Assembly (NCBI GenBank): GCA_948567375.1 | Contig: OX419758.1 | Location: 39,137,473 to 39,201,472, forward strand | From: Lunularia cruciata | Lineage: Eukaryota > Streptophyta > Marchantiopsida > Lunulariales > Lunulariaceae | DNA length: 64,000 nucleotides | Direction of reading: 5' to 3' | Shown: positions 38,391 through 58,919 of the stretch, piece by piece | Layout of the letters: the number at the start of each line of letters is the position of its first letter | Numbering within the stretch: position 1 is the first letter of the stretch | Notes under the pieces: generated by a model | Database searches by the model: none | Told to the model about the DNA's origin: nothing | What the model saw: only the letters and a program-made list of their open reading frames with translations | Made by a program: the position numbers and the translations under genes

Positions 38391-38560
38391 TGCTCCCCTA
38401 GTTGGCGGTTAGGTCCCTCTAACTCCAAATAGCCATCTACTCCAAGTATATGGTAAACCATATGATGGGCAAAGATCAAGAGGCCGGGTGCTATGGAGCC
38501 CCATCGTTAGTCGCCTGTCTGCAATCTATACCATATAAAGAACAAACTAGCTATGTGTCA

Positions 38561-39052: not shown

Positions 39053-39744
39053 TGTGAGCCGTCCTGTCTCTCACTCAGGATGAACCTCTGATGGCTATTA
39101 TGGTAGCGCACCATGGACTAAGAAGGCAAGGAACCCCAACTCCATCATACTCCTCCAAGGCTAACACTCCAATACTCAAGACATTGCTCACTAGAGAACT
39201 CAATGAGAGAGAGATAGTTGCAAATGAAAGGATCCTGAGTACCTCCTCACCCCTTGTTTATATACTTGTGAAATAGCTACGTACCAAAGTTACTAATTAC
39301 CATAGTAACTCAAGTTACTAGACTAAAAGTCAAGTAAAGTTAAAAAGTAGAAAGGAATATCCATTCACATGGGCATATTCCCCTAAGCATGTGGTCTTAT
39401 CTTGACCCAACCACTAAGTCAAGGATTCTTTCACATGGGTTATCCTTGGACTAAAGAAGAATCCAAAACAAAAAGGCTTGCAGGCCCAAGAGTTCTCAAC
39501 TCTTTCCTCAAAGCCAAACACCTAGGAATAATACCAAGTGAACACACTAAAATCCAAAATAGTGGTGTTCATCTTTTCTACTTCCTCTAAAGTAAGGTCT
39601 CCTCTATCTTAGCTATGACTAACTTTAGCTAACCATGAGTAATATAGAACCATCCTTTATCTCTATATAAATAATATCTCTTAAGTACTTGTAATACCAA
39701 GCTAAATATCACAATATCACACACATGCACAAATGGGTGTTATA
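39053..39744 (-). mobile_element. Solo LTR of the Z/X family in Y
   Basis: The reverse complement runs TATAACACCC to GCTCACA over 692 bp and is very similar to the X LTRs, including the block encoding the shadow frame over the TATA region. No internal sequence is attached. Flanks are GAAC (39049-39052) and GAAT (39745-39748), compatible with a 4-bp target duplication with one change. It separates the Y integrase core from its C-terminus. Confidence 0.9.
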
Positions 39745-40141
39745 GAATATGCACTCATCCATACATCTGGGTCATCCAAGTCCAAAACTACAATAGCATC
39801 TTGACAAATGGCTGTAGGTAAATCTGGATCTCATCCATAGTGTAGAAAGTACAAAGAGAAGGATGCTAAGGAAGCTTGCTAGCTGAACCAATAGCCCATG
39901 GGCAACCAAGGTAATTGGAGATCCCAATCTCCCAAGTGGACTCTTTGCAAACCATACTTTTGCAATCCTCTCTTCACTGTCTGAATCACTCTCTCTAGTA
40001 AGCCATTTGCCTCAAGGTGATATTGGGAGGTAGTATGGTGATCAATCAAAGCCTTGTCACACAAGACTTTAAACTCCTCCAAGAGCTCTGTACCATGATC
40101 AGTCAAAACCTCAGTTGGTGTACCAAAATGACTAAGAACTT

Positions 40142-40145
40142 GATC
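40142..40145. repeat. Target site duplication of X, left copy (GATC)
   Basis: GATC directly precedes the X 5' LTR and is repeated directly after the 3' LTR at 47940-47943. Confidence 0.75.
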
Positions 40146-40837
40146 TGTAACACCCGTTCGTGCATGTGTGTGATATTGTGATATTTAGCTTGGTATTACA
40201 AGTACTTAAGATATATTATTTATATAGAGATAAAGGATGGTTCTATATTATTCATGGTTAGCTAAAGTTAGTCATAGCTAAGATAGAGGGGACTTTACTT
40301 TAGAGGAAGTAGAAAAGATGAACACCACTATTTTGGATTTTAGTGTGTTGACTTGGTATTATTCCTATGTGTTTGGCTTTGAGGAAAGAGTTGAGAACTC
40401 TTGGGCCTGCAAGCCTTTTTGTTTTGGATTCTTCTTTAGTCCAAGGATAGCCCATGTGAATGAATCCTTGCTTTAGTGGTTGGGTCAAGATAAGACCACA
40501 TGCTTAGGGGAATATGCCCATGTGAATGGATATTCCTTTCTACTTTTTAACTTTACTTGACTTTTAGTCTAGTAACTTGAGTTACTATGGTAATTAGTAA
40601 CTTTGGTACGTAGCTATTTCACAAGTATATAAACAAGGGGTGAGGAGGTACTCAGGATCCTTTCATTTGCAACTATCTTTCTCTCATTGAGTTCTCTAGT
40701 GAGTAATGTCTTGAGTATTGGAGTGTTAGCCTTGGAGGAGTATGATGGAGTTGGGGTTCCTTGCCTTCTTAGTCCATGGTGTGCTACCATAATAGCCATC
40801 AGAGGTTCATCCTGAGTGAGAGACAGGCCGGCTCACA
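40146..40837 (+). repeat. 5' LTR of X
   Basis: It begins TGTAACACCC and ends GCTCACA. The TATA box TATATAAA is at 40626-40633. It is nearly identical to 47248-47939. Minus-strand open stretches inside it (40300-40488, 40614-40799) recur in every LTR copy and are shadows. Confidence 0.97.
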
Positions 40838-40841
40838 TTTT

Positions 40842-40860
40842 TGGTTCCGTTGCCGGGACC
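40842..40860 (+). promoter_or_regulatory. tRNA primer binding site of X
   Basis: TGGTTCCGTTGCCGGGACC starts four bases after the LTR. It resembles the tRNA-Asp-type sites of plant gypsy elements, with differences at positions 4-6. Confidence 0.8.
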
Positions 40861-41536
40861 TCTCTAGAAGGCAAGATAATGTTCCACGTCCAATTCTACA
40901 TTAGGCAGAAGGAGGCTATGAGAGCTCACCTGGAGAGGACATTAGGAGAGGAGAGGGCTGAACTTATGTTAGAGAACCAAGATCCATTTGTATACCCTGT
41001 AGTTCATTATGATGTCTTTGAGGTGATTTTGTATATCTTGTACACATGAGAGGAATTGGACAGATTGTGTGAGGTGGATTACAGATTTTGGGGATTAAGG
41101 TGATTTTGGGCAAAATCTCAAGTTTGAGATCTGGACTTGAAATTTCTACACATGATATCTTGGGTTATCTTTCAGTTAGCACACTTAAAATTATTGTGAG
41201 TGCTTTTATGCGCACTGGGCTAGAATTTTTGAAAGTTGATAGGGTAAAGTGCTCTCGCAACTGCATGCTCTCTGGAAAATTGTACAGAGTCTGAAATTTC
41301 TTCAATTTTCAGTGGATTGTCCTGAAAATTTCCAAGAAACTTGAGTGCATTGTATCCTACCTGCTGCCACAAAAATTAGAGAGAGATCATTCTTGCGGAG
41401 GAAGTTATGAGTTTTTGAAGTGAGGGGGGTGGTTTTCAGACCAAATTTGAAATATGTGTGCTCAATAGAAAGGTGTCTAGGTCAAATGGCTTGATTAAAA
41501 GATCTGAAATTTTGCAGGGATGGAGGCCCTAGAGTT

Positions 41537-42152
41537 TTGATTAAGTGTGAAAAATTTCAGAGGACTATGACGTATAGGTTGGGAGATTTGAGTGACATTG
41601 TGAGGAAGGGTCAATTCTGCAGAGTGGAGATCTCATGCATGAGGAGTTTGAGATCAACAAAAAGCATGTTTGAGTGTTTAGATTCATCTTGGGAGCATGG
41701 AGGGTCATCAAGAGTGGAAATTGAGATTATGCAAGGTTCCCCAAGGGTTTGAGGTGATTTTAGGGGTTGATTTGAGGAAAAGAGAGTTTACAATAGAATT
41801 TGAAGAGAGTATTGAGAGGATCCAAAAACCTACACCACTTGGAGGAAAGAGTGAGTCTAAGTGCTTTCTATGTAGAGCGAAGGGACATAAGGAAAGTTCA
41901 TGTCCATTGACCTTTGAGAGCAAGAGATTGAGGGACTTGGGTTTGCATGTTGGACCTTCTTCACCAAGATTGGGAGGGAGAAGATCTAAGACCAAGGAGT
42001 TGTGTGAGGTTTGTGGAGTTGAAGGACTTCCAAAAGGACATGAGTGTAGTGGAGTAAAATCACTTTTGGAGACTTTGGTGAAGGATCTTGGAGAGAGTCT
42101 TAGTACAGCTACAGAAATACTAACACCTTCATCAGCTAGTTCTCAAGATTAG
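41537..42152 (+). pseudogene. Pre-gag ORF with CCHC finger (X copy)
   Basis: The stretch 41697-42152 encodes 151 residues. They include DLRKREFTIEFEESIERIQK, a knuckle CFLCRAKGHKESSC of pattern C-x2-C-x4-H-x4-C at 41862-41903, and a second cluster CEVCGVEGLPKGHEC. The preceding part lies in another frame (41537-41752, RLGDLSDIVRKGQF and MFECLDSSWEH), with the shift near 41740. The Z copy has the same shift, so it predates both insertions or reflects an intron or recoding site. This region lies before the true gag ATG at 42389. Confidence 0.6.
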
Positions 42153-42388
42153 TGATGGAGATAATCTTTCAACATATGGATAAACTATCCATGAGAGTTA
42201 GATTAATATGCACTCTAGGATTTGATGTTGCTATAGAAATCTTGGAGCAACTTGAACCTTTTGTGTTCCCTAGAGTGGATTATTCTCGGATGGTGTTAGT
42301 CATGTATATACTCTATTAGTAATAGAGTGAAAGAAAAGAAAAGAGGAAAAAAAAATTTGAGAGAAAAGAAAGATAGTGAGGGGTTAAG
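42153..42388. other. Spacer between pre-gag ORF and gag of X
   Basis: It contains purine-rich leader sequence (AGAAAAGAAAGATAGTGAGG just before the gag ATG) that is conserved in Z. No separate feature is recognised. Confidence 0.5.
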
Positions 42389-43833
42389 ATGGGGAAACTT
42401 CCGGTTTTCTTTGGCAAGGATGGAGAAGATGTGGAGGCCTTTGTGAGATTCTTCAAGAGAGCTTGCATAGGAAACAATGAGAGGAGGAAGAATGAGTGGG
42501 TCTCATTATTACCAGATTTCTTTGAGGATGCAACACTTACATGATATGAGTCAGAATACCAAAAGAGAGAGAGGAGAGATGGGGAAGAAAAGTCTTGGGA
42601 GACTTTGACTTCAGCGCTCATTGAGAACTTTCTTCCTGATTAGAGTTATGAGAGATTAATGAGTGAGGTTACATTTCTCAAGCAAGGAGATGGAGAGAAA
42701 GTGAGAGTCTATGTGGAAAGAGTGGAAAAGTTAGAGTCCAGATTTCGCATAGTGTTGAGGAAGGGTGGGGATGATGTGGAGACTACAATGATTGGCATAG
42801 GGGCCATGCTCACCAAGAATTTTATGGGAGGGTTGAGACCACAAATTAGAAGCAAGGTGAGATATGAGAAACCTTCTTCCAAGGTTGAAGCTATCAAGAT
42901 CGCAATTCGTATGGAGGAGTGTTTGGAAGGGGATGAGAGTGATTTGGTGGTGAAGGAGGTTGTGCATCCTCCTCAAGGCTACAAGTATGGTGGAACTTCT
43001 GATACTTTGGTGACAAGGGCTGCACCACAAGTAGTAGTTGCTCCAGTCCTTGCACCTTTACGAAAAGATCCACTCCAAACCATCATAGAACAACTTGCGG
43101 ATCTCAAGATCAATGTGGTGCAACTATGGGAGAAGAGAGAGGTGGATCAGAATGTAGGGAGAGGGCCTAGGAGTTATGTAAACTATCCATATAGAGGAGG
43201 CCAACCAGCCAACCAGCCAACCAGCCAACAATTTCAATGATAGAAATTGTTTTGGTTGTGGAGGAAGAGGCCATATCCAAAGGAATTGCCCAAATTCCAC
43301 TTACCATGGAGGAAGGGGTTATGAGGGAGCCAATAGAGGGAAAGAGGGAGGTAGTGAAACCCAAGTGGCTCCTAATCCCAACAAAGGTAAGGGGATAGCA
43401 TCCATAGATGTGGTTGAGAGCAAGTATGAGAAGGGAGAGTGCTCAAACTCCAAGGGTCTTAATTTGGAGCTTTTGGCACAAGAGAAGAAAAGAGCTCGTT
43501 TTGTAGAGGATGTTCACTCTTCTCAAGGATTTAATTCAAGCAAGGATACTCCTATGTCTACTAGGAGCAGTCGCACCTCAACACCATCAACAACAAAGAC
43601 TCCAAGGAAGAATTTGGGGATGGAGGACTTCTTGATCTCAAAGCAACAATAGAACTACAATGTGTTGGAGGATGTTGGTAGTCACAAGGCTAACATCACA
43701 ATGGGCCAATTAATTGCTTTGAACCCTACCTTGAGAAAGGAGCTTAGAGGTGGTTTGAGTTCTACAAGGAGCAAGAAGAAGAAGAAGGCAAAAGTTCCAA
43801 TATCAATGGGGGTGGTGGATGCCAAGCCAGCCT
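42389..43833 (+). pseudogene. Gag of X with CCHC zinc knuckle
   Basis: ATG at 42389-42391 begins MGKLPVFFGKDGEDVEAFV. The retrotransposon gag domain follows (VSLLPDFFEDATLT, FLKQGDGEKVRVYVERVEK, GGLRPQIRSKVRYEKPSS). Stops replace Trp near 42542 (present as TGG in Z) and Glu near 42640. An 8-bp unit CAACCAGC repeated three times at 43202-43225 puts the zinc knuckle CFGCGGRGHIQRNC (43248-43289) in another frame; with a single unit it would be in frame. A Ser/Thr-rich linker with TPSTTKTPRKN leads to the protease. Confidence 0.88.
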
Positions 43834-45582
43834 GATGTGAGAGTGAATGGTCACAACATCAACGATGCATTGGTTGATGGAGGATCAGCAGTGAATGCCA
43901 TGTTAGAAAGGTTGATGAAGAAGTTGGGTATGATACCCTCAAGACCTTCAACATTTGTGGTGAGCATGGCAAACAAGCAACAAGTTCGACCAGTAGGGGT
44001 GATGGATAAGGTGGTAGTTTCAGTTATGGGAGTTCAAAATCTCATGAATTTCCAAGTCTTGAAGGATTCAAGTTATGACTTACTTCTTGGGAGGCCATGG
44101 TTGAGAGCAGCACGCACAACTGATCGATGGCACAAAGGGTACTTGAGGATTGGGCCATCAAACCATAGAGTCACAGTTCCTGTGACTAACACCACCAACA
44201 CTTCATATTCAGATACACCATCTTCTGATTATTGGGAATCAGATTCTGAAGAAGGAGCTTCAGGTGTGGACACAAGCATGGAGGAAGAGACTTCCACGGA
44301 GGAGGATGAATCTAAATCTGATTCAGATGTGTATCCCTTGTGTGCTATGGATTTTGCACCTAAGCCAGAGGTTTTGAAGGACCCAGACAAATCACCATTG
44401 ACACTTGAGGAGGTAGAGAGAAGGTTAGCTACCCTCAAGTATGGCCTAAATGTTACCAAGGAGGAGAAGGTGAGATTTGAGGAGATTTTCCGCAAGTTCA
44501 TCCATGTGTTTGCTTTTAGTTACAAGGATTTGAAGGAAGTCACCTTAGAGGAGCACAAGATAGAGGTGGAGTCACATGCAAGACCAATCCGCCAAAAGCA
44601 ACGTCGCATTAGCCCACCAATATCTTTGGTTGTGAAGGAGGAGATTGATAAGCTCAAGGAGGCTGGATTTATCTTTGAGGTGAAGAATTCAGAATGGGTG
44701 TCTCCAATTGTCATTGTGGAGAAAAAGAATGACAAGCTTCGGGTATGTGTGGATTACAAGAAGCTTAATGCTGTTAAGAAGAAGGACTACTACCCATTGC
44801 CATTCATTGATGAGATCTTGGAGGAGGTTGCAGGTCATGAGAGGTACAGTTTTAGAGATGGTTATAGTGGATACAACCATATGAAGATTGCACCAGAGCA
44901 TCAACAACTCACCACATTCACCACACCTTGGGGAACTTACGCTTTCAAGGTCATGCCTTTTGGGCTTTGCAATGCTCCAGCCACATTCCACCGGTTCATG
45001 AACAAGGTATTTGAACCTTTCATTGGGAAATTTGTGAGAGACTTCATTGATGACTTTTGTGTCTATGGGAGCAAGGAGGAGCACTTTGAGCACCTAATCA
45101 AAGTCTTGCAACGCTTGGATGAGGGAAATGCATCACTCAACCCAGAGAAGTGCATTTTTGGATGTGAAGAAGGTCTACTTTTGGGGCACATCATCTCCAA
45201 GGATGGAATAGCAGTTGTTCTTGAGAAGGTGAGGAAAATCTTAGACCTTCCATTCCCTTCAAGCTTGACAAAGTTACGCCAATTCTTGGGGATGGTTGGG
45301 TACTATAGGAGGTTCATCTTCTCATTTTCCAACAAGGCTTATGCATTGACCATCTACATGAAGAAGGGTGTAGATTACATGGTGATTTTGGAAGACAAGG
45401 AGGCTCTCAAAGCTTTTGAGGAGCTCAAGCAATCCCTTGTTGTAGCTCCAATTCTTGCTAAACCTGATTGGAGTAAGCCTTTCATCCTCTACACTGATGC
45501 TTCTAATGTAGCTATAGGATGCACTCTTAGTCAATTAGACCAAGATGGGCATGATCATCCAATAGCTTATGCTAATAGGTAG
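43819..45582 (+). pseudogene. Protease, RT and RNase H start of X (587 codons open)
   Basis: The longest open frame of the window. Protease: ALVDGGSAVNAM with active-site D-G-G-S at 43876-43887, and LLLGRPWLRA. An acidic linker (EEDESKSDSDVYPL) follows. RT: LVVKEEIDKLKEAGF, KKLNAVKKKDYYPLPFIDE, VMPFGLCNAPATFHRF and the catalytic FIDDFCVY with Asp-Asp at 45049-45054. The thumb reads LRQFLGMVGYYRRFI. RNase H begins ILYTDASNVAIGCTLSQ. It ends in TAG at 45580-45582 where Z has CAG. The 5' end lies beyond a frame change relative to gag. Confidence 0.93.
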
Positions 45583-47199
45583 ATGGTTTCAGCAGAGAAG
45601 AACTACTCTGTCACGGAGAGAGAAATATTGGTAGTGATCTTTGGTCTCAAGAAGTTTAGACACTACTTGATTGGAGGGAAAGCCACAATTGTCACGGATC
45701 ACAAGGCTTTGAAGTACATCTTCAACAAGCCTAATGTTGAAGGGAGACTAGCAAGGTGGATGATACTCATGTCTGAGTATGACTACACAATTGAAGATAG
45801 GCCAGGAAAGAAACATGCAAATGCTGATTTGTTATCTAGAGCCTATGATCATGATGGAGATGAACCAATGGATGATTCCTTCCCGGATGAGGAGCTCATG
45901 ACAATCTCAGTCACTCAAGAGATTCCAATGGAGTACAAGGAGATTATGGATTTTGTGACAAGAGGTAACTATCCAGAAGGGATGCATGCTAGGGAGAGGA
46001 ATGCCCTTGCAGCAAGATCTAGACCTTACCCAATGGTGGAGGATATTCTTTTTCACCAAGGAGCAGATGGTCTACTTCGAAGAGTAGTGGGTAAGGAAGA
46101 GTCTATCCTACTCATAAAGGAGTTTTATGAAGGTTTAGTATGTGGAGGACACTTTGCAGGAAAGGTGACTGCTTTCAAGATTCTAGATGCAGGTTACCAT
46201 TGGAGAGGGATTTTCAAGGATTGTCTTGATTATTGCAAAAGTTGTCATGTTTGTCAAGCTTTTGCTAGAAAGTCTACATTCACTCCACCACTTAGATCAA
46301 TTCCATTGCTAGGACCTTTTGAGAAGTGGGGATTTGATTTTGTAGGTCCTCTCAATAGAACCCCAAGGAACAATGGGTACATTGTGGTAGTTACTGATTA
46401 CCTTACCAAGTGGGTTGAGGCTAGACCATTGAGGGACAAGAATGAAGATGAAGTGGGTAAATTTCTTTATGAACGCATTATCACTAGGTTTGGATGCCCT
46501 TTGGAGTTGGTTTCTGATAGAGGAGGAGAGTTTACAGGAAACATTACTACAACCATGCTACAACATTTATCTATCACACATAGAGTAACTACATCCTATA
46601 AGCCAAATTACAATGGCTTGGCAAAGGGAACCAATCAGACCTTGTGCATGATGTTGGCCAAAGATGCAGAAATGGAGGGGGCTAAACATCATTGAGACAA
46701 GAGGATTCATGCAGTTTTGTGGGAGTATAGGACAACCATGAAGATTTCCACCGGATATTCTCCATTTCAATTGGTGTATGGTATTGAGTCTACCCTACCT
46801 ATTCACTTTGATCTTCCTACCTTCCAAAGCATTCATAGGAGATTGAAGAAAGCACAAGGAGGTGATGCAGAGAAGTCAAGGAAGGATCAACTCATGGAGT
46901 TGGAAGAGGCAAGAGCAGTTGCTATGGTTTGAGTGGAGCAAGCCCAAAGGAAACAAAAGGAGAGCTATGACAAGATGCAAGGCAAGAAGAAGGTGGAGAC
47001 TTTCAAAGAAGGTGATTGGGTAATGTTGTTTGAATCCATTGTATTCAAGAGAGTGCAAAAGAAGTTTTTGCCTAAGTACTTTGGACCTTTCATAGTGGAG
47101 AAGGTGTGGGGAAATTACACCTATGATCTCAAGGAGTTGGGAGGAAGACACTTTGATAGGATTAACCATGATAAGTTGAAGATGTACCATAGAAGGTAG
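45583..47199 (+). pseudogene. RNase H and integrase of X
   Basis: After the TAG the same frame continues: YSVTEREILVVIFGLKKFRH and HANADLLSRA close RNase H. The integrase HHCC finger (CGGHFAGKV, AGYHW, CKSCHVC) lies at about 46144-46260. The core has Asp in WGFDFVG (46336-46338) and SDRGGEF (46516-46518), but NGLAKGTN puts Lys at 46624-46626, where the D,D-35-E Glu belongs; Z keeps Glu. Stops lie at 46693-46695 and 46930-46932. The end has FLPKYFGPFIVEKV, a GPY/F-like module, and no chromodomain. The final stop is at 47197-47199. Confidence 0.93.
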
Positions 47200-47232
47200 A
47201 GAGAACTTCACTTTGAGGACAAAGTGAAAACT

Positions 47233-47247
47233 TAGTCTGGGGGTAAA
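47233..47247 (+). promoter_or_regulatory. Polypurine tract of X
   Basis: TAGTCTGGGGGTAAA directly precedes the 3' LTR, the usual place for plus-strand priming. Z has AGTTCAGGGGTAAA at the same place (near 57742). Confidence 0.8.
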
Positions 47248-47939
47248 TGTAACACCCATTTGTGCATGTGTGTGGTATTGTGATATTTAACTTGGTATTA
47301 CAAGTACTTAAGAGAGATTATTTATATAGAGATAAAGGATAGTTCTATATTACTCATGGTTAGCTAAAGTTAGTTATAGCTAAGATAGAGGGGACTTTAC
47401 TTTAGAGGAAGTAGAAAAGATGAGCACCACTATTTTGGATTTTAGTGTGTTGACTTGGTATTATTCCTATGTGTTTGGCTTTGAGGAAAGAGTTGAGAAC
47501 TCTTAGGCCTACAAGCCTTTTTGTTTTGGATTCTTCTTTAGTCCAAGGATAGCCCATGTGAAGGAATCCTTGCTTTAGTGGTTGGGTCAAGATAAGACTA
47601 CATGCTTAGGGGAATATGCCCATGTGAATGGATATTCCTTTCTACTTTTTAACTTTACTTGACTTTTAGTCTAGTAACTTGAGTTACTACGGTAATTAGT
47701 AACTTTGGTACGTAACTATTTCACAAGTATATAAACAAGGGGTGAGGAGGTACTCAAGATCCTTTCATTTGCAACTATCTCTCTCTCATTGAGTTCTCTA
47801 GTGAGCAATATCTTGAGTCTTGGAGTGTTAGCCTTGGAGGAGTATGATGGAGTTGGGGTTCCTTGCCTTCTTAGTCCATGGTGCGCTACCATAATAGCCA
47901 TCAGAGGTTCATTCTGAGTGAGAGACATGCCTGCTCACA
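47248..47939 (+). repeat. 3' LTR of X
   Basis: TGTAACACCC to GCTCACA, 692 bp, pairs with 40146-40837. The TATA box is at 47728-47735. GATC follows. Confidence 0.97.
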
Positions 47940-47943
47940 GATC
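47940..47943. repeat. Target site duplication of X, right copy (GATC)
   Basis: It matches 40142-40145. The Y integrase resumes here. Confidence 0.75.
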
Positions 47944-48530
47944 CAAGAATGAGTAAGTTGTCCCTTCACTAGACTTGTCAGGAAGTGCCACCAACTCAAT
48001 CCACTTGGAGAAGTGCTCCACCATCACCAAGACATATCGATGAGGTCTCACAGTCAGTGGTAAAGGTCAAGCAAAGTCCAAACTCCAATGGTAACCCAAT
48101 CCCATGATAGGTAATAGGTGTTATTGTGGTGTAGGAGCATTGAATGATGCTCTAACTTAAGCACAAACCACACATCTGGCAACAAACTACTTTACCTTGA
48201 TCTGCATACCGCACCACCAATAATGACTATGGAGTAAGCTATATGTACTCTTTACTCCAAAATGTCCTAGCTCCTCATGAGCATGACGGACCAACTATGG
48301 TCTTTGAGATGGAAGTGGTACTACTCACACTCTACCATCCTCCCATACATGCAAAAGGTGTTTGCACTCCAATCTGAATTGTCTGGCTTGATGAAGAACA
48401 CTGTCTCTCTCCTTGGCCCCAATTGTGCTACCCACAACACGAGTGCAAAGATAGTGCATCATCATGAATGTCTTGCTGAAATGTACCAATATCTTCACTC
48501 TCTGGATCTATGACCTCAATAACTCCTCCT
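47944..48530 (-). pseudogene. Y integrase zinc finger and first half of core
   Basis: The minus strand reads HAHEELGHFGVKST, SHYWWCGMQ and CVVCA, which is the HHCC finger (about 48150-48290). YHWSLDFA follows with the first catalytic Asp at 48076-48078, then RYVLVMVEHFSKWIELVALP. It is broken by several TGA/TAA codons and then by the X insertion. Joined with 39879-40145 the D, D and E residues are all present. Confidence 0.85.
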
Positions 48531-48753
48531 ATATACATTGAGAGAGATACCACCAAAGCTTTAGCAAATAAAAGAGAAAGGCAGATGCATGCCAACTTGG
48601 CACCATCTCCTCATCTATCTCACCATGCCAATGTGCTCCGGTCTGATCTTGCTCGCTAGGACATGGGTTTCTACTCAGCCTATCTGCATCAAGGTTCACC
48701 ACTCTAGGTTTGTGAACAACCGTGAAATCATACTCCTATAAAATCAAAGTCCA

Positions 48754-50130
48754 TCATGCAAGCTTCCTTGAAAGCTTGTTGGACTCCATCAACCACTTCA
48801 GCGGCTGATGATCAATGATGAGAGTGAAGGGGTTACCAAAAAGGTAACATCCAAAATGTGCTACTGCCCAAATTGCTGCCAAGCACTCTCCCTCATATGA
48901 ACTATACTTTGCCTCTGCTGAATTGTTGGAGCAACTAGCATAGGCCACCACAAATTCCTTCCCCTCATCATCATGTTGGGTGAGCACTGCTCCAAGCCCC
49001 AACATACTCCAATCAGTATGAACCTAAAATGGTTGTCCTCTGATCGGTCTCTTCAAAATAGGAGTAGATGTCAACCTCTCCTTGAGCTCTACAAAAGCTC
49101 TCTCCTGCTCATCTCCCCAACACCACTCTTTTGTTAGCTTGGTCAGCTTTGTCAAGGCCTTGGCAATAGCACTAAATCCTCTAACATAGCGTCAATAGAA
49201 GTTTGCCAACCTAAGAAATGCTCGCACTCTGCTCATCCATAGGCCACGCAATACTTGCAATAGTTTCCACCTTGGTCTACTAAACACCAAGTCCTCCGGG
49301 GTAGATAGTGTGACCCAAATACTCAACCTGCTTGTGGAAGAACCTACACTTCCCAAGATGTAATTTGAGGTCATGAGATCTCAACCTCTCAAAAACCTCC
49401 AACAACTATTTCTCATGCTACTCCACAGTAATGTTATAGATCAAAATGTCATCAATATAGCACCGAGCAAAATCTATTCCAGCTAGGATCTTATCCATGA
49501 CCCTCTGGAACTCAATAGGAGTGTTCTTTAACCCAAATAGTAAGAACCTCCATTGATATAACACATCCTTGCCATGAGGATCAATAACATAGAATGTTTT
49601 TTTAGACTTATCCTCCTCTATGATTGGCAACTGATGATATCCCGCTCAAAGATCCAAAGTACTAAAGACCTTTGCATGCCCAATTGCATCAAAAATCTCC
49701 TTTGATGTAGGTATGGCATACGAATCAGCCCTGGTCTATTGGTTGATAAGATGGTAATCTCCACACATCTGCCTATCTGTGTAGTTGCCATGCATATCCT
49801 TCTTGGCTGGCATCATTGTTGTTGATGCATACTCTCCATGTGAGATCTCCACCAAACCAGCCTCAAAAAGGTCACTACTCCAGCTTTGAATCAATGTCCT
49901 CTCCATATCACTATATTGATAATGACATCAAAAAACTAGTGTATTGTTAGTCAGCTCAATCCGTATACCAGGTCCCTTCAGAGTACCCAAATCCTTCATA
50001 CTCAAGGCAAAACAACTCGTGTGACTCTTCAAGAACCTCCAAACCCCCAGTCTTTCCTCTCGAGTACGCTTGGGTCCAAGATCTGGTTCCCAAGTATCCT
50101 TTGTAATTATAGTCAAAGTGGAAGACATAC
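48754..50130 (-). pseudogene. Reverse transcriptase and RNase H of Y
   Basis: From 50128 the pre-RT linker has FALSMKDLGTLKG and IRIELTNNTLVF. The RT palm at 49418-49630 has FYVIDPHGKDVLYQW, FGLKNTPIEFQRVMDKIL and CYIDDILIY with the Asp pair at 49448-49453. The thumb part lies near 49192-49374 in a shifted frame. RNase H (48754-49005) reads GLGAVLTQHD, AYASCSNN, YEGECLAAIWAVAHF and LIIDHQPLKWLM. Catalytic RT residues are retained while stops and shifts divide the gene. Confidence 0.88.
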
Positions 50131-50484
50131 TGACTGGCTGCTACATTGGGCCCTTGGGAGCAATAGTGTCATGCCTCCGACCACTAGAGATCCCAGCCTC
50201 TATGTGAAAAACTCCCTCTACTCTGGCTGCAAGCTCCACACGTCCTCTAGTTGCATCCCAAGTAGACCAAGGGTGTATTCCAAGTAGCCCATGCTCACAT
50301 GGATGGACTCCAAGTAGACTACTCTCCCTAGTAGCTATTGGATGTATCCCAAGAATACTATGTCCACTCGGTCCATCGCCCCCAACATGCCTAAATTGTC
50401 TCAATAGGCACAGGGCTCACAAGTGTCCAAGTGGTGATGCCTATCAAGTACATCCTACACTGCTCTACCAAGCCAAGGCTCATA

Positions 50485-51500
50485 ATCTAGGTCAAACAGT
50501 TCAGGTCCATAGCTTGACCTAACATCTAATGCTTGGATGCCTCTGACACTATTGGAATAGCGGTAATACCGGTGCAAAAACCCATCGCCTGCTCTCTCTC
50601 ATTGGCATTAGGCTCCACCAACTATTGTAATTGTGAGTCCCAAACAAGTCCAAGTGCTCCCTCTCAAAAAGCATGAGAGCTTGGGAAACTCATGAGTGTG
50701 GGAAATGCAGCTCTAGGCTGTCCGACTAGGTTCACCACTGCTATAGGTGACCTATTAGCCACTACCACTATCTGAGACTGATGCCCAACATCCAAGATAT
50801 CATCAACAAGGATGTGGTCAAGTTGCTGAATCCCATCATAAGCACGCTGTAAAACCTCTTTGGGTAGGAGGTTTGTCCACCAAAGACAAAGACGATGAGC
50901 CTGTGATCACACTCTAGCTGCATCTAACAATATAGTAGGTCCCATCCAAGAATGGACCTGATAAGTACTTGCCACCACTCTGGTGCAAGAATCACCCATC
51001 AGAGGAACATTCAACAAAAGGTAAGCTGGAGAAATGGACTAATGAACCTAGAGATGTTGTAGTGTTCGTAACATCTCCCAAAACACACCAGAATGAGGAT
51101 CTTGAAGACCCAAACCTTGGCTCACATGTGCATGTCACTGACATGGCCATCCAGAAATCACCAAGTGAATAGGCCCATGTCTCTCTAGATCACGCGCTCC
51201 AAGTAAAGAAATGTCTACTTACCAGTAGGGCCTTCTGGTAATCTTTGATTGCTGACATCGGTAATAACTCCGAGTACCAATAGGCCAAGTGTGCCACATG
51301 ATGTAAAGAGACTTGCCTAGCAGTCTCATCTCTCTCTACATACAAGTACCTTTGTACTCGTATACTTGCCTGTAATACTATAGCTAGTCCGGTGCTAATC
51401 TCACCAAACAACTCCAATAAACATATCCCCTCTACTGGATACTGCCAAGCAATGAGTGTGGTATCCAAAGGTGTCAAAGTGATCAACTCTAGAGGCTCAA
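50485..51500 (-). pseudogene. C5 cytosine methyltransferase-like domain in Y polyprotein
   Basis: Motifs appear in the order of a C5 DNA methyltransferase, reading down. Motif I (SAM binding) is LLELFGEISTGLA (51385-51429), then RVQRYLYVERDETARQV. Motif IV is PIHLVISGWPCQ with the catalytic Cys codon at 51141-51143, then GLGLQDPHSGVFWEMLRTLQ. Motif VI is PAYLLLNVP (51009-51011), with Leu for the Glu of ENV. The later part has ILLDAA, AHRLCLWWTNL (50869-50900), RAAFPTLMSF, NEREQAMGF (50581-50605) and LGQAMDLNCLT. The F-x-x-I-x-T-G-L and AHR...TNL wording recalls DNMT3-type enzymes. Frame changes occur between motifs I and IV, and stops occur after PCQ and later. It lies between protease and RT. 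Confidence 0.82.
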
Positions 51501-51810
51501 CCTCAAACTCATCTCTTGATGGTACAAAAGCTCCACTCCAAACCTGTTGCACCAATTGATCTGTATGTTGCTGCAATGCCTCCTCTGAACTCCATAATGA
51601 AACATCCAAGGTGGATGGAACAATCCCACTTGTGCTCCAAATTTGAGTGATCTCCTTTGGTACTGGAGTATCCTCTGTATGGGCGTTCTCCTCTAACAAG
51701 TCACCAAACCAAGTAACTGCACCATTGAAAGCTAAAATTGATGCAGTTATGCTCTCGGACTGTAGTGAGCCAAGACTGCCACTACTGAAGCATATTGGTA
51801 GGTAACATAC
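51501..51810 (-). pseudogene. Linker between Y protease and methyltransferase domain
   Basis: The upper part of the 169-codon open stretch 51190-51699 (LEENAHTEDTPVPKEITQIW, VPSRDEFEVEPLEL) is acidic and without a known fold. It joins directly to motif I of the methyltransferase in one frame, which shows the domain is fused to the polyprotein and is not a separate insertion. Confidence 0.6.
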
Positions 51811-52190
51811 TCATCCCTCACCAGACTGCCAACCTGGTCTATAGGAGGTTGTCTCCTCCCAATAGTCAGTACTGAAACCCATGGGGTATACCACTGCTCT
51901 CCCAACTAGCACATCATATGACTCAACTATTGTTGTAATAGCTTGAGCTCTCACCACCGAGCTATCCGTCGGATAACTAGGCTGAACTTGGACAACAAGA
52001 CAACAACTCCCCATGTGTGATGTATTGTGTCAAACCACCACCTAGAGATGTCTGGATTTGAAATGGACACCTCTCCACATCGGTCTTCCATAACTCCAAA
52101 TCGACTACTACTGCCTTCCCCAACATAAGGGGCTATGCACCAGAGTCTAACAAGACTTTCTATGCTGTATAGACCTTCCTTGAAGGTCAC
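51811..52190 (-). pseudogene. Retropepsin-like protease of Y
   Basis: The active site reads KVLLDSGA with D-S-G-A at 52136-52147, then PLMLGKAVVVDLELW after a stop. ESYDVLVGRAVVYPMGFSTD and YRPGWQSGEG near 51811-51930 resemble the end of the protease domain of such elements. Two or more stops and a frame change are present. Confidence 0.8.
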
Positions 52191-52990
52191 ACCAAATAGA
52201 AAATCCCCCTTTGGTTATCCAATAGTACAACACCAAGTGTGAACCGCGCTCTCTCAAAGACCAATCTAGGTGTCAACTCCTCTAGTCTAGCCATTGTTGC
52301 TTGCCATAAGCCATTGGTTGCTGAACATATCCCATGCTCCTCAACCAAGTCAACTCCACTATCAACCACTTCTGCTCTAGTAGTAGGAACCGCATCATCC
52401 CTACTCTCACAAAGTGCGGCAGCCGATCGGAACACTAGGGTTGGGTCAACTTCCAATATAAACATGTCACTGGCTAAAAACAAAGGGCAATGCATAATCA
52501 GCTGAGCCGCTCCCAACATCATGCTAGACTCAGTTTGTGTAGTACCAAGTGGTTGACTAGCAAGTAGTCTATCATGTATTCCATCACCACCTACCACACC
52601 TGCACTAGGACATCTAGGAACCATGGACGTTGTCTGCAATGCCTCAGATAGTGTGAAAGACTGGGGGAGTCTAACCTGTCTCCCAACCTCTCCTCTCTAT
52701 GAGTCCAACTCCACCAATGCTCTTCTAGGCTCCTCTAGCACGTACTGCACTCCTAGTCACTACTATAGATCCATCTACTTGTGCTGCTCTACACATGAAG
52801 TCCAAAGCATCTCTATCACCAGCATATGAGGTGGAAGCCTTAACACCCAAATTTGATCTCCTCTAAGCAATAGCCATACTAGCCAATCTTTGCTCCAACT
52901 GCTCAATCCGAGTAGCCATAGCTGTATCAAAAGTAAGGGCAAGTATTGCACCCCTACTAGGTGCAGATCCTCTACCACCACTCTACCACC
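52191..52990 (-). pseudogene. Region between Y gag and protease
   Basis: A 150-codon open stretch (52187-52639) and a preceding part with TRIEQLEQRLASMAI (about 52890-52940, a short coiled-coil-like segment) are seen. No catalytic motif is visible. It is most likely the C-terminal gag extension or linker. Confidence 0.5.
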
Positions 52991-54235
52991 TCGTCCTCCA
53001 TGAACTTGAGCTCCTCTACTACCTACCATAGCAGCCCTACCACTCCGTAACTCCGGGTGTAGGTCAAAGCACTGGTCACTAGTGTGACCAAATCTATGGC
53101 AATGCTCACATTGCCTCTATGTTGGTTGTGATGTACCTGAGTTAATAGGTCCACTACCCTGAGTACACTCTCTCTAATGGTGAGGTCCACCACAAGTCCA
53201 ACAAGCAACACTACTACTCACTGGTTGCTGCTGACCCAAAAATGAAGGTAAGGGTCTAACTCCACTAGGCCCTCCACTTGCCCCATAAGATTTGGGCTGT
53301 CCACCCTATCCTCAAAAACCAACTGGGCATGGTGCACTCTGGAAGAAGTAACAGTTGTGGATGAGGTCTCCCTACCAAATCTAGATGTCACCACTCTCTC
53401 CTCCACCATGTTGAGCTCAATACGCTTAGCCAAACCAAAGACCACTGCCAAAGTAGCCTATAACAATGTAGCATCACAAACTCTACGTCACAACTCCCTA
53501 TCCAGTATCCCATACCAAAATTGGACTGCTTGGGCCTCAGTAACTCCCTGAGTGAAACTAATCAACCGCCTCATGCAAGTGTATGCCTCGTGTAGGCTCT
53601 CTCCAGCCTTTCATTGGAACTCATGCAAGCTTCTCAACTTGTTAGTCCGCACTCCTTGGTAGTTTTGCCTCAAACACTAGAAGAAGTCCACCATGGGGTT
53701 AAACCTTGGTACCACACTACCTCATGTAGTGGAACCTCCACTCGTGGTAACACTATCTCCAGCTAGTGCATCTCCACTAGCTCCACCAACACTTCTCGAG
53801 CTAGAACTCGTGATACAGCAAATCTACTCTTGGCAACCAAGCCTGAAGTGATAGAGATATAGTTCGGAGACCAATATTGTCTCCCTAACTCAATCTCCTC
53901 CAAATGAGCTCTCCTGAACTCATGGTAGTCATCCATTGGTGGATCCTCCAAATGCTGAAACAACCCTTCTATGCTATGAAAGGTGTGAACAAAGTCGGGT
54001 TCTGCATCTGCTATAGATCACACCAACTATCAAACTCTTGGATGAAGTCATCCAACTCAATGGTACCCACTATAATAGAGTAAGGCCTAGGGCTTTTGGA
54101 GGCCCCATAAATCTTGTCCATGTCCCACAACAATAGTGCAGACAATTGCAAGACAAGTGCACTCTTAATTGGATCAACTTTTGTGTCAAACTCCAACTCA
54201 GAGTCAATCTCCTCCCTCACTGGGACCTAGGATAT
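52991..54235 (-). pseudogene. Gag of Y with two zinc knuckles
   Basis: The gag domain starts near 54220 (LDDFIQEFDSWCDL) and continues QHLEDPPMDDYHEFRRAHLE (53763-53963). Two knuckles follow: CWTCGGPHH, a stop, then REC at 53165-53203, and CEHCHRFGHTSDQC at 53069-53110. Gly/Arg-rich sequence (VHGGRGG) follows at about 52985-53010. Frame changes and stops are frequent. Confidence 0.8.
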
Positions 54236-54342
54236 AGGTTGATATTGAGTGCCAATCCAAGTTAATCCACTGCATACTATAGGGCTATCTCCTCTAGAAT
54301 CCCCAAAGAACTCCTTCATGACAAAGTAACCGCAACTACAAT

Positions 54343-54365
54343 CGCAACCGCAAATTGCGGTTGCG
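54343..54365. repeat. Perfect short inverted repeat
   Basis: CGCAACCGCAA (54343-54353) and its complement TTGCGGTTGCG (54355-54365) face each other around one base and lie in a longer imperfect palindrome. It could form a hairpin or cruciform in the Y leader. A role in RNA packaging or dimerisation is speculation. Confidence 0.8.
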
Positions 54366-54394
54366 GTTGTGGGTACTTGCAACAACAAGTACCC

Positions 54395-54530
54395 CACCAA
54401 GTGCCAACACTAACCAAGCACCACCAAGTGCCAACACCAACCGAGCACCACCAAGTGCCAATACCAACCAAGCACCACCAAGTGCCAATACCAACCAAGC
54501 ACCACCAAGTGCCAAAACTAACGGAACATT
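54395..54530. repeat. 27-bp minisatellite, five units
   Basis: Units start at 54395, 54422, 54449, 54476 and 54503, each CACCAAGTGCCAA followed by a variable ACCAACCAAG-like part. The 27-bp period keeps frames open on both strands, and the resulting open stretches are shadows. It lies between the Y 5' terminal repeat and gag. Confidence 0.95.
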
Positions 54531-55342
54531 ATCCACTAATGTAACTCTAACCGAGACAACTACACTAGGGGCAAGGGTGACCTGTAATCTGCCATCACAA
54601 CATGTATTCTCACGGTCTGTAGGTCATCACTTCCTGCCTCACCGGAGAGAAACTAAGATAGTCTGACTAGTCATCACTCTAGCCTCACTATCGAGAGCAC
54701 CCTAGAGCACCAATGCTCAAAATTCAAGGCACCTCACACAAACATGGAGCAAAGAATGGAGGGAGTCCAATCACAAGAATGCTAAACAACAACCCCCATC
54801 TCATAAATCAACATAAGACTAACTTTGCCACCATTTGGTATTTGACATAATTGGAGTACCTATCTACTTCCTGAGCTACAAGGATCACCAAGGATCGGAT
54901 TCAAGTTCTTCTCGCCAAAATTTGACATAACTCCTTCACAAAATCTGACATAAAATTTGATGTAAATCTGACGTAAAATCTGACATAAATCCTTAAAAAT
55001 GGCTGACCACTAAATCCTCAATTCACTATTCACTCGAGCTAAATTGGAAAAATGGGTTTAGTCCAATCTTTCAATTTGTGAAGATCTACTCCCAACTCCA
55101 CCTTCAATTTTAGTTTATGAGGTCAACTCATAACAAATTGATCCTAAGCTCAAAATCATAACTACCTCTTGAAAATTGCTTCTTCCTTGGCTCCAAATTT
55201 TGCCAGCACTTTTGCACACACACACTCTCTTAGGGAAATCTAAACTACTCGATCAAGACACCATGATCCACCGAGCTTGGAGATACCACCAACACTCGTA
55301 ATTCCTACACCCAATTTCCCCCTGACTCATTTCTTTGATGTA
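54531..55342 (-). other. Y leader between terminal repeat and gag
   Basis: No open frame of note. The repeated word TCTGACATAAA/TTTGACATAA near 54845-54990 is locally abundant. A TGGTATCTCC on the minus strand near 55280 begins like the common plant initiator-Met primer site TGGTATCAGAGC but diverges after seven bases, so I do not call a primer site. Confidence 0.4.
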
Positions 55343-55788
55343 ATCAAATCATTTACAACTCCAATCAATTGAACTCAGATCAATACTTAATTTGATCCTC
55401 AACAACTTGCCAACAATAGGGCATTGATGACAGTCAAACCACACCCACTCTAGCTAAGAGACTCTAGGTGATGCTCGACGGCTTTCTGTCCACTCTAGCC
55501 AAGAACTCAAAGGCTCAACATCAGAGAAGTGAGCTCTCTGGAGATGCACTTCCAAAGTATACTCCTAATTTCAACCTAGGTCTCATCCGAACGGTCCCAC
55601 TAACGGCACACCCAATAGCGTGGATGGTGCAAGTGACGGTGGGACCCACCATGAAGTCAATACTCTAAACACAAAATCTGACCATTAGAAAATAGTCTAT
55701 GAGTAACTGCCAAAATGCCTCTAACTACTAATACTAGAACTCTTGTGTCCAAGCAATCTAGATGCGACACTACAAATGGCATGACACA
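55343..55788 (-). repeat. Y terminal repeat, right: unit b only
   Basis: It matches 37841-38281: CTCAGATCAATACTT, GATCCTCAACAACTTGCCAA, CACCCACTCTAGCTAAGAGA, CAAAATCTGACCAT and CACTACAAATGGC. The copies differ at many positions, so Y is older than X. Unit a is missing on this side. Confidence 0.85.
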
Positions 55789-56345
55789 ATTTTTGGAGAT
55801 GGTTGGGTACCAAAGGAGGTTCACCTTCTCATTTTCTAACAAGACTTATGCATTGACCATCTACATGAAGAAAGGTGTAGATTATATGGTGATTTTGGAG
55901 AACAAGGAGGATCTCAAAGTTTTTGAGGAGTTCAAGTAATCTCTTGTTGTAGCTCCAATTCTTGCTAAACCTGATTGGAGTTAGCCTTTTATCCTCTACA
56001 CTGATGCTTTCAATGTTGCTATGGGATGCACTCTTAGTCAATTAGACCAAGCTGGGCATGATCATCCAATAACTTATGCTAGTAGGCAGATGGTTTTAGC
56101 AAAAAAGAACTACTCTGTCATGGAGAGAGAAGGGTTGGCAGTGATCTTTGGTCTCAAGAAGTTTAGACACTACTAGATTGGAGGGAAAGCCACCATTTGT
56201 CACGGATCACAAGGCCTTGAAGTACATCTTTAACAAGCCTAACAAGACTTGCAAAGTGGATGATACTCTTGTCTGAGTATGACTACACCATTGAGGATAG
56301 GCTAGGAAAGAAACATGCAAATGCTGATTTGTTATCTAGGGCCTA
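55789..56345 (+). pseudogene. RT end and RNase H of Z
   Basis: Z resumes after the target copy ATTTT with GMVGYQRRFTFSFSNKTYAL. It continues through MKKGVDYMVILENKEDLK to RNase H (LYTDAFNVAMGCTLSQL, HANADLLSRA). Stops at about 55939, 55983 and 56175 and a frame change near 56205 break it. It corresponds to 45283-45842 of X. Confidence 0.88.
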
Positions 56346-57720
56346 TGATCATGATGGAGATGAGCCAATGGATAATTCCTTCCTGGATGAGGAGCTCATG
56401 ACAATCTCAGTCACTCAAGAGGTTCCAATAAAGTATAAGGAGATTGTGGATTTTGTGAGAAGTGGTAACTATCCAAAAGGGATGCATGCTAGGAAGAGAA
56501 GTGCACTTGCAGCAAGGTCTAGACCTTACACAATGGTGGAGGATATTCCTTTTCACCAAGGACAGATGGTCTACTTTGAAGAGAAGTGGGTAAGGAAGAG
56601 TCTATCCTACTCGTAAAGGAGTTTCATGAAGGTTTAGTGTGTGGAGGACACTTTGCAGGAAAGGTGACTACTTTCAAGATTCTAGATGCAGGTTATCATT
56701 GGAGAGTGATTTTCAAGGATTGTCTTGATTATTGCAAAACTTGTCATGTTTGTCAAGCTTTTGCTAGAAAGTCTACTTCCACTCCACCACTTAGATCAAT
56801 TCCATTGCTAGGACCTTTTGAGAAGTTGGGAATTGATTTTATAACTCCTCTCAATAGAACCCCAAGGGACAATTGATATATTGCGGTAGTTAATGACTAT
56901 CTTACCAAGCGGGTGAGGCTAGACCATTGAGGGACAAGAATGAAGATGAAGTTGGGAGATTTCTTTGAATGCATTATCACTTGGTTTGGATGCTCTTGGA
57001 GTTGGTTCCTTATAGAGGAGGAGAGTTTAGAGGAGCATCACTATAGCCATGCTACGCTATTTCTCTATCACACATAGAGTGACTACTTCCTATAAGCCAA
57101 ATTCTAATGGCTTGGCAGAAAGAACCAATCAGACCTTGTGCATGATGTTGGCCAAAGATGCAAAAATGGAGGGGGCTAAACATCATTGGGACAAGAGGAT
57201 TCATGCAGTTTTGTGGGAGTATAGGACAACCATGAGGACTGCCACCGGGTATTCTCCATTTCAATTGGTATATGGTATTGAGTCTACCTTACCTACTCAC
57301 TTTGATCTTCCTTCCTTCCAAAGCATTCATAAGAGATTGAAGAAACCACAAGGAGGTGATGCAGAGAAGTCAAGGAAGGAACAACTCATGGAGTTGGAAG
57401 AGGCAAGAGCAGTTGCTATGGTTTGAGTGGAGCAAGCCCAAAGAAACAAAAGGAGAGTTATGACAAGAGGCAAGGCAAGAAGAAGGTGGAACCTTTCAAA
57501 GAAGGTGATTGGTTAATGTTGTTTGATTTTATTTGATTCAAGAGAGTGCAAAAGAAGTTTTTGCCTAAGTACTTTGGACCTTTCATAGTGGAGAAGGTGT
57601 GAAGCAATTACACCTATGATCTCAAGGAGTTGGGGAGGAAGACACTTTGATAGGATTAACCATGATAAATTGAAAATGTATTATAGAAGGTAGAGAGACC
57701 TTCACTTTGAGGACAAAAAT
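56346..57720 (+). pseudogene. Integrase of Z
   Basis: The HHCC finger (CGGHFAGKV, AGYHW, CKTCHVC) is near 56640-56760. The core has LGIDFITPL and, after frame changes, SYKPNSNGLAERTNQTL with the catalytic Glu at 57117-57119. The stretch around the second Asp is damaged (TCCTTATAGAGG replaces TCTGATAGAGG). The C-terminal part matches X, including the TGA at 57424-57426 that X also has at 46930-46932. Confidence 0.88.
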
Positions 57721-57742
57721 GAAAACTTAGTTCAGGGGTAAA

Positions 57743-57808
57743 TGTAACACCCATTTGTGCATGTGTGTGGTATTGTGATATTTAGCTAGGTATTACAAGT
57801 ACTTGAGA
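57743..57808 (+). repeat. Truncated 3' LTR of Z
   Basis: TGTAACACCC follows a polypurine tract (CAGGGGTAAA), but the LTR stops after about 66 bp at TACTTGAGAG. The next base starts family-B sequence lacking its own first 330 bp or so. The joint is therefore a deletion or recombination point and not a clean insertion. Confidence 0.9.
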
Positions 57809-58919
57809 GTACACAAATTCCTCAATCAAAATTGCTTCACATCAACTTTGCACTACACTCACAAATGCAGAATACTACCAACACTACAATTCCTCTCAGA
57901 TCTATCAAGGCATTGCTGCAATTGCACTTCATTCAAGATCAAACACACAAAATGAAGATCAAGGTTGCAGAATCCAACATCCAACAAGCTTGACTTGCAC
58001 TTCAAATTTCTCCACACACTCACAAACACAAACACAATGTTGATACTTAGAATTAAGCTTAAGCAATGAGCACTGCTCCACAGCACTTCACTTTATCTAT
58101 CTTCAAAAAAATGAATACCAAACAACATATGACTGCAAATGCCACTCTTAAATAGTGAAGCAAACGACAATTCTAACAAAAATACCGTTCTATAACAACT
58201 CTTCTAACCTGTAGATCCGAATTGACAATGCAACCCTTCATATCTACCTCTTCAAATCTCAAATTTGTTTCTACCCTAATCCGATGTCTACCTCCTCATC
58301 AGCTTTCAAACCCGATGATCTTCCTATTACTTCTCCTTCTTTGGGTATATCTACCACTACCAAGTCCTTCACTATTTCTACTACTTCTACACTAGGAACT
58401 ACAATTAAGCTCATGGGTAATCTATCTACTTCCTTATCTCCCGGCCCACTCTTCTCTAATGTCTCAAATAACAAGTCCGAAGACACTTGAATTCCTACTT
58501 TTGCAACATCAGACTTCCTCTCCTCTGTCACACTACTCCTAGTTCTCTCTAACTCAAACTTGACTAAATCTAATCTGAGACTGACATTGTCTCCTACTTC
58601 TAACATCTTCCAATCTATTCGCTCCCTTAATTGGATCAGTAAAGTGTTCATATCCACATCTTTGGCTTTCCTCTTCCAAGTTTCTTGCACAAGCAACTTT
58701 AACTCGTGTAGACGTGCTTCTTCCAACCTTCCTTTAGCCTCCATGCTCAAGATTGCTTGCAACTTTCTTGCAATTTCTCCTACTGATTCCGACTCACAAC
58801 CTCAAGATCACTCTGCCTTCAACTCTTTGTGGTACATCTTCAACTCATCTTTGTACTTAGCAGCAAGCATCTTCTTCTCCTCCGTTGTCGTCGGGAAAAT
58901 AGCCCACGTGTACACTTGA
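57809..58919 (-). pseudogene. Family-B copy C: coiled-coil C-terminus and 3' part
   Basis: The first 350 bp match the B and A 3' parts (CAAAATTGCTTCACATCAAC, ATACTACCAACACTA, TCTATCAAGGCATTGCT). The minus-strand frame 58271-58919 reads KKMLAAKYKDELKMYHKEL, a stop, EARLHELKLLVQETWKRKAK and RIDWKMLEVGDNVSLRLDL, ending EEVDIGLG. It extends about 120 residues past the point where B terminates, so B carries an internal deletion. The N-terminal half continues at 62587 after the intervening block. Confidence 0.75.

Follow-up and report, generated by a model that had tools for sequence, protein, structure and literature searches.

The closest described system is KnitGypsy-Dnmt3 of the charophyte Klebsormidium nitens (de Mendoza et al. 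2018, PMC5890265). According to the text of that paper, it has the domains of a Gypsy element with a DNMT3-type methyltransferase (MTase) in the Pol frame; a figure legend gives its repeat layout as DIRS-like, and its MTase is reported to be under purifying selection. The element described here, which we have called Y, is alike in all three respects, with an A-coding-B-A-B layout and a family under purifying selection. Compared by description, Y differs in its land-plant (liverwort) host, its PHD finger and its 5-bp target duplications; the words PHD and target site duplication are absent from the main text of PMC5890265, figures and supplement aside. Sequences of K. nitens were not among the matches of our protein searches, one of which scored the best 8000 candidates.

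The same paper describes SymbioDIRS-Dnmt3 and SymbioLINE-Dnmt of Symbiodinium, which are retroelements with a C5-MTase, the DIRS type having split repeats. These have tyrosine recombinase or LINE machinery and a dinoflagellate host, whereas Y is a Gypsy element with a DDE integrase (PMC5890265). DIRS/PAT elements share with Y the split-repeat layout A-coding-B-A-B, but they have a tyrosine recombinase and no target duplication, whereas Y has DDE integrase domains and 5-bp duplications. Chromoviruses are described as having a histone-binding module at the integrase C-terminus, as is predicted for Y; theirs is a chromodomain, whereas Y carries a PHD finger, an MTase and split repeats. A PHD is also reported for the DNA transposon Ginger1 (Ginger paper). 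An orchid Gypsy element likewise took an enzyme acting on nucleic-acid marks, but the text describes it as an m6A demethylase of the AlkB kind, acting on RNA and placed in an additional frame (PMC9289625), unlike the MTase of Y.

DNMT3 in retrotransposons of streptophytes and dinoflagellates is mentioned as previously reported in the text of PMC12344493, and such transposons are stated in PMC6338049 not to be present in land plants such as tracheophytes. The main text of a survey of plant LTR elements mentions neither methyltransferase nor PHD. Our literature search (text only, without bioRxiv and most subscription journals) returned no report of Gypsy MTases in land plants or of PHD in Gypsy integrases. 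Here we describe an MTase-bearing Gypsy present in many copies in a liverwort, Lunularia cruciata, for which Ty3/Gypsy bursts have been reported (PMC9985172); its relatives occur in Marchantia, Riccia, Sphagnum and Chlamydomonas eustigma, and the family has a predicted histone reader.

Domain order and ends of element Y

We have analysed a 64,000-nucleotide stretch of the L. cruciata assembly (the window; Table 1). The first-pass annotation had found the right locus of Y, and the C5-MTase motifs were where it had put them on the minus strand, with correct coordinates; the PHD finger, the split repeats and the stretch past element X to 37734 had escaped it.

The MTase motifs are split between two minus-strand frames, with motif I in one and GWPCQ, the ENV-like LLNVP, AHRLCLWWTNL, EREQAMGF and LGQAMDLN in the other. 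The frame changes near 51220 (tblastn), and eight in-frame stops were counted in the part after 51218. Pfam searches of the single open frames of the window returned no methylase. When the catalytic half was translated in a single frame, with stops replaced by X, DNA_methylase scored E 0.29, below the cut-off, and a phmmer search of the broken copy against the PDB returned one antibody only (E 1.3). Thus, the profile search that the annotation had proposed as a check spoke, taken alone, against the domain, whereas the homologue search spoke for it. Of 179 candidates, 51 proteins matched the catalytic half at E<=1; the strongest match (E 4.8e-90) covered the entire query at 62% identity. Sphagnum troendelagicum, Marchantia paleacea and Riccia sorocarpa proteins were among these matches, and several of the matched proteins contain PF00145. 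Fifteen longer proteins (nine of Marchantia polymorpha, one of Sphagnum fallax and five others) matched the MTase region with E 1.8e-79 to 4.6e-24; in one of the relatives, P0056, PF00145 was found at E 2.5e-10. Since the homologue matches settle what the weak Pfam score left, we have accepted the identity of the region as an MTase.

The longer relatives that were scanned or compared carry gag, protease (PR), MTase, reverse transcriptase (RT) and RNase H (RH) in parts of a single polyprotein, and P0054 and P0055 align along the window in the order gag, PR, MTase, RT, RH (tblastn). This bore out the proposed position of the MTase inside a Gypsy Pol, between PR and RT. The layout of Y was drawn from tblastn with ten of the longer relatives as queries. 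Residues 1-450 of Marchantia P0054 matched the gag of Y with 48-71% identity, and the PR assignment is based also on motif positions in relatives and on Asp_protease_2 in P0090 and P0092. The PR-RT-RH-integrase (IN) order, the Gypsy-type RT, the RNase H and the H2C2/rve integrase identify Y as a Ty3/Gypsy element. The integrase match of P0063 ends at 47941 and picks up at 40145, showing that X, another Gypsy with GATC at both edges (by sight), interrupts the integrase of Y. The window copy of Y is dead, with X inside its integrase and with eight stops and a frame change in its MTase.

Table 1. Features of element Y and of its neighbours in the window
Feature	Position	Strand	Basis
Whole element Y, outer limits, with two later insertions inside	37734..55786	-	CAATT duplication; like ends of two copies; X2 on both sides
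Repeat A1, 5' end of Y	55341..55786	-	444-bp direct repeat, 85.8% identical to 37839-38279
Gag region with zinc knuckle, pieces in several frames	52737..54121	-	tblastn P0054
Aspartic protease region	51900..52288	-	tblastn P0054; limits inferred from LLDSGA motif of P0054
DNMT3-class cytosine-5 methyltransferase domain, broken	50452..51426	-	Motifs, homologues, tblastn; class via relatives' profile
Reverse transcriptase	49235..50074	-	PF00078 E 2.9e-24; tblastn
RNase H	48634..49236	-	PF17917 E 2e-30; PF17919 E 1.9e-29
Integrase first part, H2C2 zinc finger and core start	47944..48462	-	PF17921 E 2.7e-14; P0063, P0066 tblastn
Integrase core, second part	39762..40145	-	P0063 71% identity, P0066 39%
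Integrase C-terminal part	38758..38985	-	P0066 42% identity
PHD finger and lead-in, C-terminal to integrase	38561..38782	-	PF00628 E 7.6e-08 at 38698-38563; tblastn
Repeat B1	38288..38390	-	96% identical to 37737-37839
Repeat A2	37839..38285	-	Direct-repeat comparison with A1
Repeat B2, 3' end of Y	37734..37838	-	Repeat comparison; like ends in two copies; CAATT duplication
Element X, another Gypsy, inserted in Y integrase	40144..47943	+	LTRs 40144-40840 / 47248-47943, 96% identical
Solo LTR of X family, inserted in Y	39049..39746	-	96-97% complementary to X LTRs
X2 left part, older element hosting Y	37249..37733	+	91% identical to X 44799-45288
X2 right part	55787..57809	+	92% identical to X 45280-47314

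The complete layout of Y is A-gag-PR-MTase-RT-RH-IN-PHD finger-B-A-B. The 103-bp repeat B stands on both sides of the 3' A and is absent at the 5' end, in the window as in two whole copies from the same genome. The B-A-B array was found at 13 of 13 three-prime ends (the window, the two whole copies and 10 further 3' ends), with the outer B partial in L055 and a B that is 90% alike in L061; the L051/L052 pair, in which the second A is truncated and B occurs once, was left out of this count. Locus L056 has one B-A-B array followed by a second, perhaps representing two elements or end arrays in tandem. At the 5' end, A stands alone in 3/3. The ends are therefore not the identical terminal repeats of ordinary LTR elements, the 5' end being A only and the 3' end B-A-B. 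Compared with A repeats from three further copies, the A1 repeat of the window copy is 76.6-78.7% identical. In the two full copies, the A at one end matches the A at the other at 97.3 and 98.0%, and these copies are therefore younger than that of the window.

Outside A1 and B2 we have found target duplications of 5 bp, within the 4-5 bp of Ty3/Gypsy elements, in 3/3, namely CAATT in the window (37729-37733 and 55787-55791) and CACTT and GAGTT in the two copies, where they were assigned by eye and where the longest shared strings found by script were ACCAAG and AGAGTTG. At the B1-A2 junction, also in 3/3, the 3' end is followed by three spacer bases and then by the 5' end. Pfam scans of 34001-40143 and of 47001-56000 (minus strand) did not find a tyrosine recombinase in Y.

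Other features were also seen in the window. Between A1 and the gag of Y, at 54336-54623, there are short tandem repeats reading VLALGGAWL in one minus frame. A Gypsy relic separate from X and Y lies at about 98-2068 (minus strand), and 59389-60219 is taken up by a tandem array whose unit measures about 141 bases. Rfam and tRNA scans of the window found nothing.

A multi-copy family under purifying selection

The assembly that was searched comprises 565,766,749 bases in 74 contigs, of which eight large ones (60.2-84.9 Mb) account for about 558 Mb. The PF00145 search scored 123 matches among 2161 first-look candidates, at least four of them being host genes. We have read 41 putative element copies, namely 40 retrieved sequences and one further locus; the copies were picked by hand, mostly from the upper part of the list. 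The MTase domain was present in 41/41, all of which had been located via that domain. Over at least 280 of the 325 residues of the MTase alignment, 35 of the 40 copies were ungapped, and the remaining five were dropped. The MTase had no introns in any of the 35. The domain order of Y, free of X, was also seen in another two copies from this genome, and the PHD finger stood upstream of B1 in 10/10 further 3' ends as well as in the two full copies. Y is thus one member of a multi-copy Ty3/Gypsy family coding for gag-PR-MTase-RT-RH-IN-PHD.

These copies also bear on whether the MTase reading could be a chance likeness, or a stray fragment of a host gene inserted in one copy. The weak Pfam score of the window copy would be compatible with either. 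They are contradicted by the E 4.8e-90 match to a separate protein, by the placement of the retroelement MTases in a clade of their own (see below), and by the intron-free domain in the 35 ungapped copies and its presence in all 41 copies read. We have rejected a stray insertion on these grounds, and consider both explanations extremely improbable. The MTase belongs to the element, as had been proposed, with the proviso that every copy was found through it.

The MTase was free of stops in 12/35 ungapped copies, and 23/35 carry a stop. For the MTase (35 copies, 595 pairs) dN/dS was 0.41, as compared with 0.29 for RT (37 copies, 3 dropped) and 0.46 for gag-PR (29 copies, 11 dropped). Variants shared between copies had relatively fewer amino-acid changes and stops than singletons, and this was alike for MTase, RT and gag-PR (Fisher p 0.019, 0.020 and 0.003, respectively; odds ratios 2.0-2.2). 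The MTase of the Y family is under purifying selection, with a constraint about equal to that of gag-PR and less strict than that of RT. The MTase has 7 stop variants that recur in three or more copies, RT has 4 and gag-PR 3; some copies may thus have spread although their MTase was broken.

The Cys and Pro of PCQ and the Glu of ENV were retained in 35/35 ungapped copies, a count biased by the use of this stretch in finding the copies and by a profile that favours intact motifs. In the wider set of key positions, Cys, Glu, motif I and two Arg positions were retained in 35, 35, 34, 32 and 28 of the 35 copies, respectively.

Relatives of the methyltransferase

With a profile built from 18 relatives, the PDB search placed DNMT3A, DNMT3B or DNMT3C in the first 29 of 55 rows (E 1.3e-11 to 3.2e-07). 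HhaI followed at 3.4e-05, and HaeIII, DNMT2 and DRM2 (0.12) were weaker. The canonical motif order together with this best likeness places the Y enzyme in the DNMT3 class, in agreement with the DNMT3-type wording of the first-pass annotation.

In the tree, the MTase of Y falls in a clade of 17 rows (SH-aLRT 99) made of 12 liverwort or moss rows, four others and the window; rows of short coverage, Riccia among them, were omitted. The annotation had taken the host for a seed plant, which we have rejected, as the nearest named relatives of the Y MTase are liverwort and moss elements and the source is Lunularia cruciata. The genome holds two intron-split DNMT3 genes (L001 and L004), a DRM gene (L002) and a CMT-like exon (L003), identified by their motifs by sight. 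According to the text of PMC6453930, gymnosperms and non-seed plants have DNMT3 and flowering plants lack it; because gymnosperms have it, the presence of a host DNMT3 alone does not exclude a gymnosperm, but the size of the assembly effectively does.

Host DNMT3 and DRM belong to the same enzyme class as the retroelement MTases and differ from them at the catalytic motif. This reads FPCQD in both host DNMT3 genes and SPCNN in the DRM, which has the rearranged motif order, whereas the retroelement rows have mostly GWPCQ and form their own clade. We have compared 29 retroelement MTases (26 of the 126 proteins found, the window and two copies of the same genome) with five cellular rows (the two host DNMT3, the host DRM, the host CMT exon and human DNMT3A). 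All 29 lie on one side of a branch with support 99/100, recovered in 98% of 200 bootstraps, in a 34-row tree with long branches (CMT exon 4.64, DRM 2.13), three cellular rows under half filled, and a cellular sample without host DNMT3 of algae or mosses. The proposed comparison with DNMT3, DRM and CMT thus separates the retroelement MTases as a clade of their own. The Y enzyme appears not to be a recent copy of a host DNMT3, lying outside the five cellular rows compared.

A further protein search, in which the best 8000 candidates were scored, added 60 proteins, four of them from Chlamydomonas eustigma. These four (P0104, P0112, P0113 and P0122), together with P0062, P0064-P0066 and most of P0067-P0126, belong to the MTase clade of Y and to an RT sister group, and they represent a second, algal kind of element in which the MTase lies between RNase H and integrase, whereas in Y it lies between PR and RT. 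The domain thus sits at two places in Pol within one MTase clade. In P0062 and P0066 the catalytic motif has WECQ instead of WPCQ, a substitution that may alter or abolish activity. An IMG/VR scan gave 10 pattern matches, of which none was confirmed.

The two positions of the MTase, and the C. eustigma elements without a PHD, would be expected if bryophyte and algal elements had each acquired a similar DNMT3-type gene. Such independent captures are made rather unlikely by the single branch (99/100; 98% of 200 bootstraps) that holds all 29 retroelement MTases. They are disfavoured also by the RT tree (22 rows, 11 omitted for coverage), in which the 19 RTs of MTase-bearing elements group apart from those of X, of another Gypsy in the window and of Ty3 with support 100/98, algal Gypsy elements lacking an MTase being outside the sample. 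The PHD after the integrase in elements of the second kind (20/126 proteins) points in the same direction.

It could also be that the domain is no longer an active methylase and serves as a nucleic-acid-binding or structural part of the polyprotein, in particle assembly or RNA binding. The GWPCQ of the window corresponds to GSPCN in human DNMT3A, WECQ stands in two of the algal-type relatives, several copies share MTase stop variants, and the K. nitens enzyme gave a negative result in yeast (PMC5890265). The retention of Cys, Glu, motif I and the two Arg in 35, 35, 34, 32 and 28 of 35 copies, and the presence of most of these residues in bryophyte relatives as well, argue against a loss of activity, and we regard it as unlikely.

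The PHD finger and a possible life cycle

Pfam did not find a chromodomain in the window frames or in the relatives scanned; a PHD finger was found instead. The PHD of the window aligns with that of five relatives, although one zinc-ligand position looks decayed in the window. Among the 126 proteins collected, 20 have a PHD finger, which the algal-type relatives share with Y in its place after the integrase. The named bryophyte and C. eustigma proteins are not among the 20: the bryophyte proteins that were checked stop short of the PHD place, and in the four C. eustigma proteins, two of which run past the integrase core, no PHD was found. Within bryophytes, the PHD is shown only in the genome of the window.

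Among the best 60 of 100 matches, the solved structures nearest to the PHD of P0066 were those of CHD4, BAZ2A/B, ATXR5, DPF2 and KDM5B, with UHRF1, PHF21A and AIRE lower. Several of these PHD fingers are readers of unmodified H3. By this likeness, the PHD of Y is predicted to bind unmodified histone H3 tails.

We propose a life cycle that joins the two domains and the ends of the element. The MTase, whether freed together with RT in the particle or left fused to RT, would methylate the cDNA of the element itself before or at integration, such that new insertions would be born methylated. The PHD finger, standing where chromoviruses have their chromodomain, would tether the integrase to nucleosomes with unmodified H3 tails and so steer insertions to silent chromatin, where a methylated copy would harm little and be kept. 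The inner B1-A2 junction would serve as the template for restoring the unequal ends every time the element replicates, much as DIRS/PAT elements do with their split direct repeats, the insertion step being carried out by the DDE integrase, unlike in those elements. We infer cDNA methylation, the chromatin tether and end restoration through the B-A junction from domains and repeats, and we give this joint reading a probability of roughly 60%.

The text of PMC5890265 reports that the SymbioDIRS-Dnmt3 enzymes methylate CG in yeast, whereas the K. nitens Gypsy enzyme produced no methylation there, a result that its authors call inconclusive. We have sought a CpG-depletion signature of self-methylation and found none special to the MTase element. 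Over their central 2 kb, 40 copies had an observed/expected CpG ratio of 0.42 (0.32-0.47); the ratio was 0.24 in the window copy of Y and 0.14 in X, in which tblastn found no MTase. As CpG is lowest in the MTase-free X, ordinary host silencing suffices for the depletion. The higher dN/dS of the MTase (0.41) as compared with that of RT (0.29) counts against the proposed cycle, as do the MTase stops in 23/35 copies, some of them shared, and the C. eustigma proteins, in which no PHD was found.

A different use of the enzyme would be an action on the host, through diffuse de novo methylation or competition with host silencing, the domain being kept for a trans effect, for example against competing elements or DNA viruses. 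The many copies in one genome (123 scored PF00145 matches, at least four being host genes) could be read in this way, and a role against viruses has been suggested in PMC6338049. Genome-wide methylation would, however, bring the element little in cis, and the methylome of K. nitens is described in the text of PMC5890265 as not unusual despite such elements. We find such a trans effect improbable.

More tentatively, the bryophyte and algal elements may form one green-plant Gypsy lineage predating the chlorophyte-streptophyte split. This lineage would carry a write-and-read module (a DNMT3-class MTase and a PHD on the integrase, the PHD being lost in some) and replicate in a mixed mode, with split-repeat ends restored from the internal circle-junction copy and with DDE integrase insertion accompanied by target duplication. 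Its copies would be born methylated and aimed at silent chromatin, and its MTase would have moved once within Pol. We hold this wider scheme to be doubtful as a whole.

If the proposed cycle of cDNA methylation, tethering and end restoration is true, a parasite may write and read the very chromatin marks by which it is usually silenced. Methylome work exists for the model plant Marchantia (PMC5784723), and so the question of why a transposon carries a silencing enzyme becomes testable. In public records, the retroelement proteins P0002 and P0053 bear the name DNA (cytosine-5-)-methyltransferase, P0053 as far as the name shows; such naming may inflate DNMT gene counts in bryophytes.
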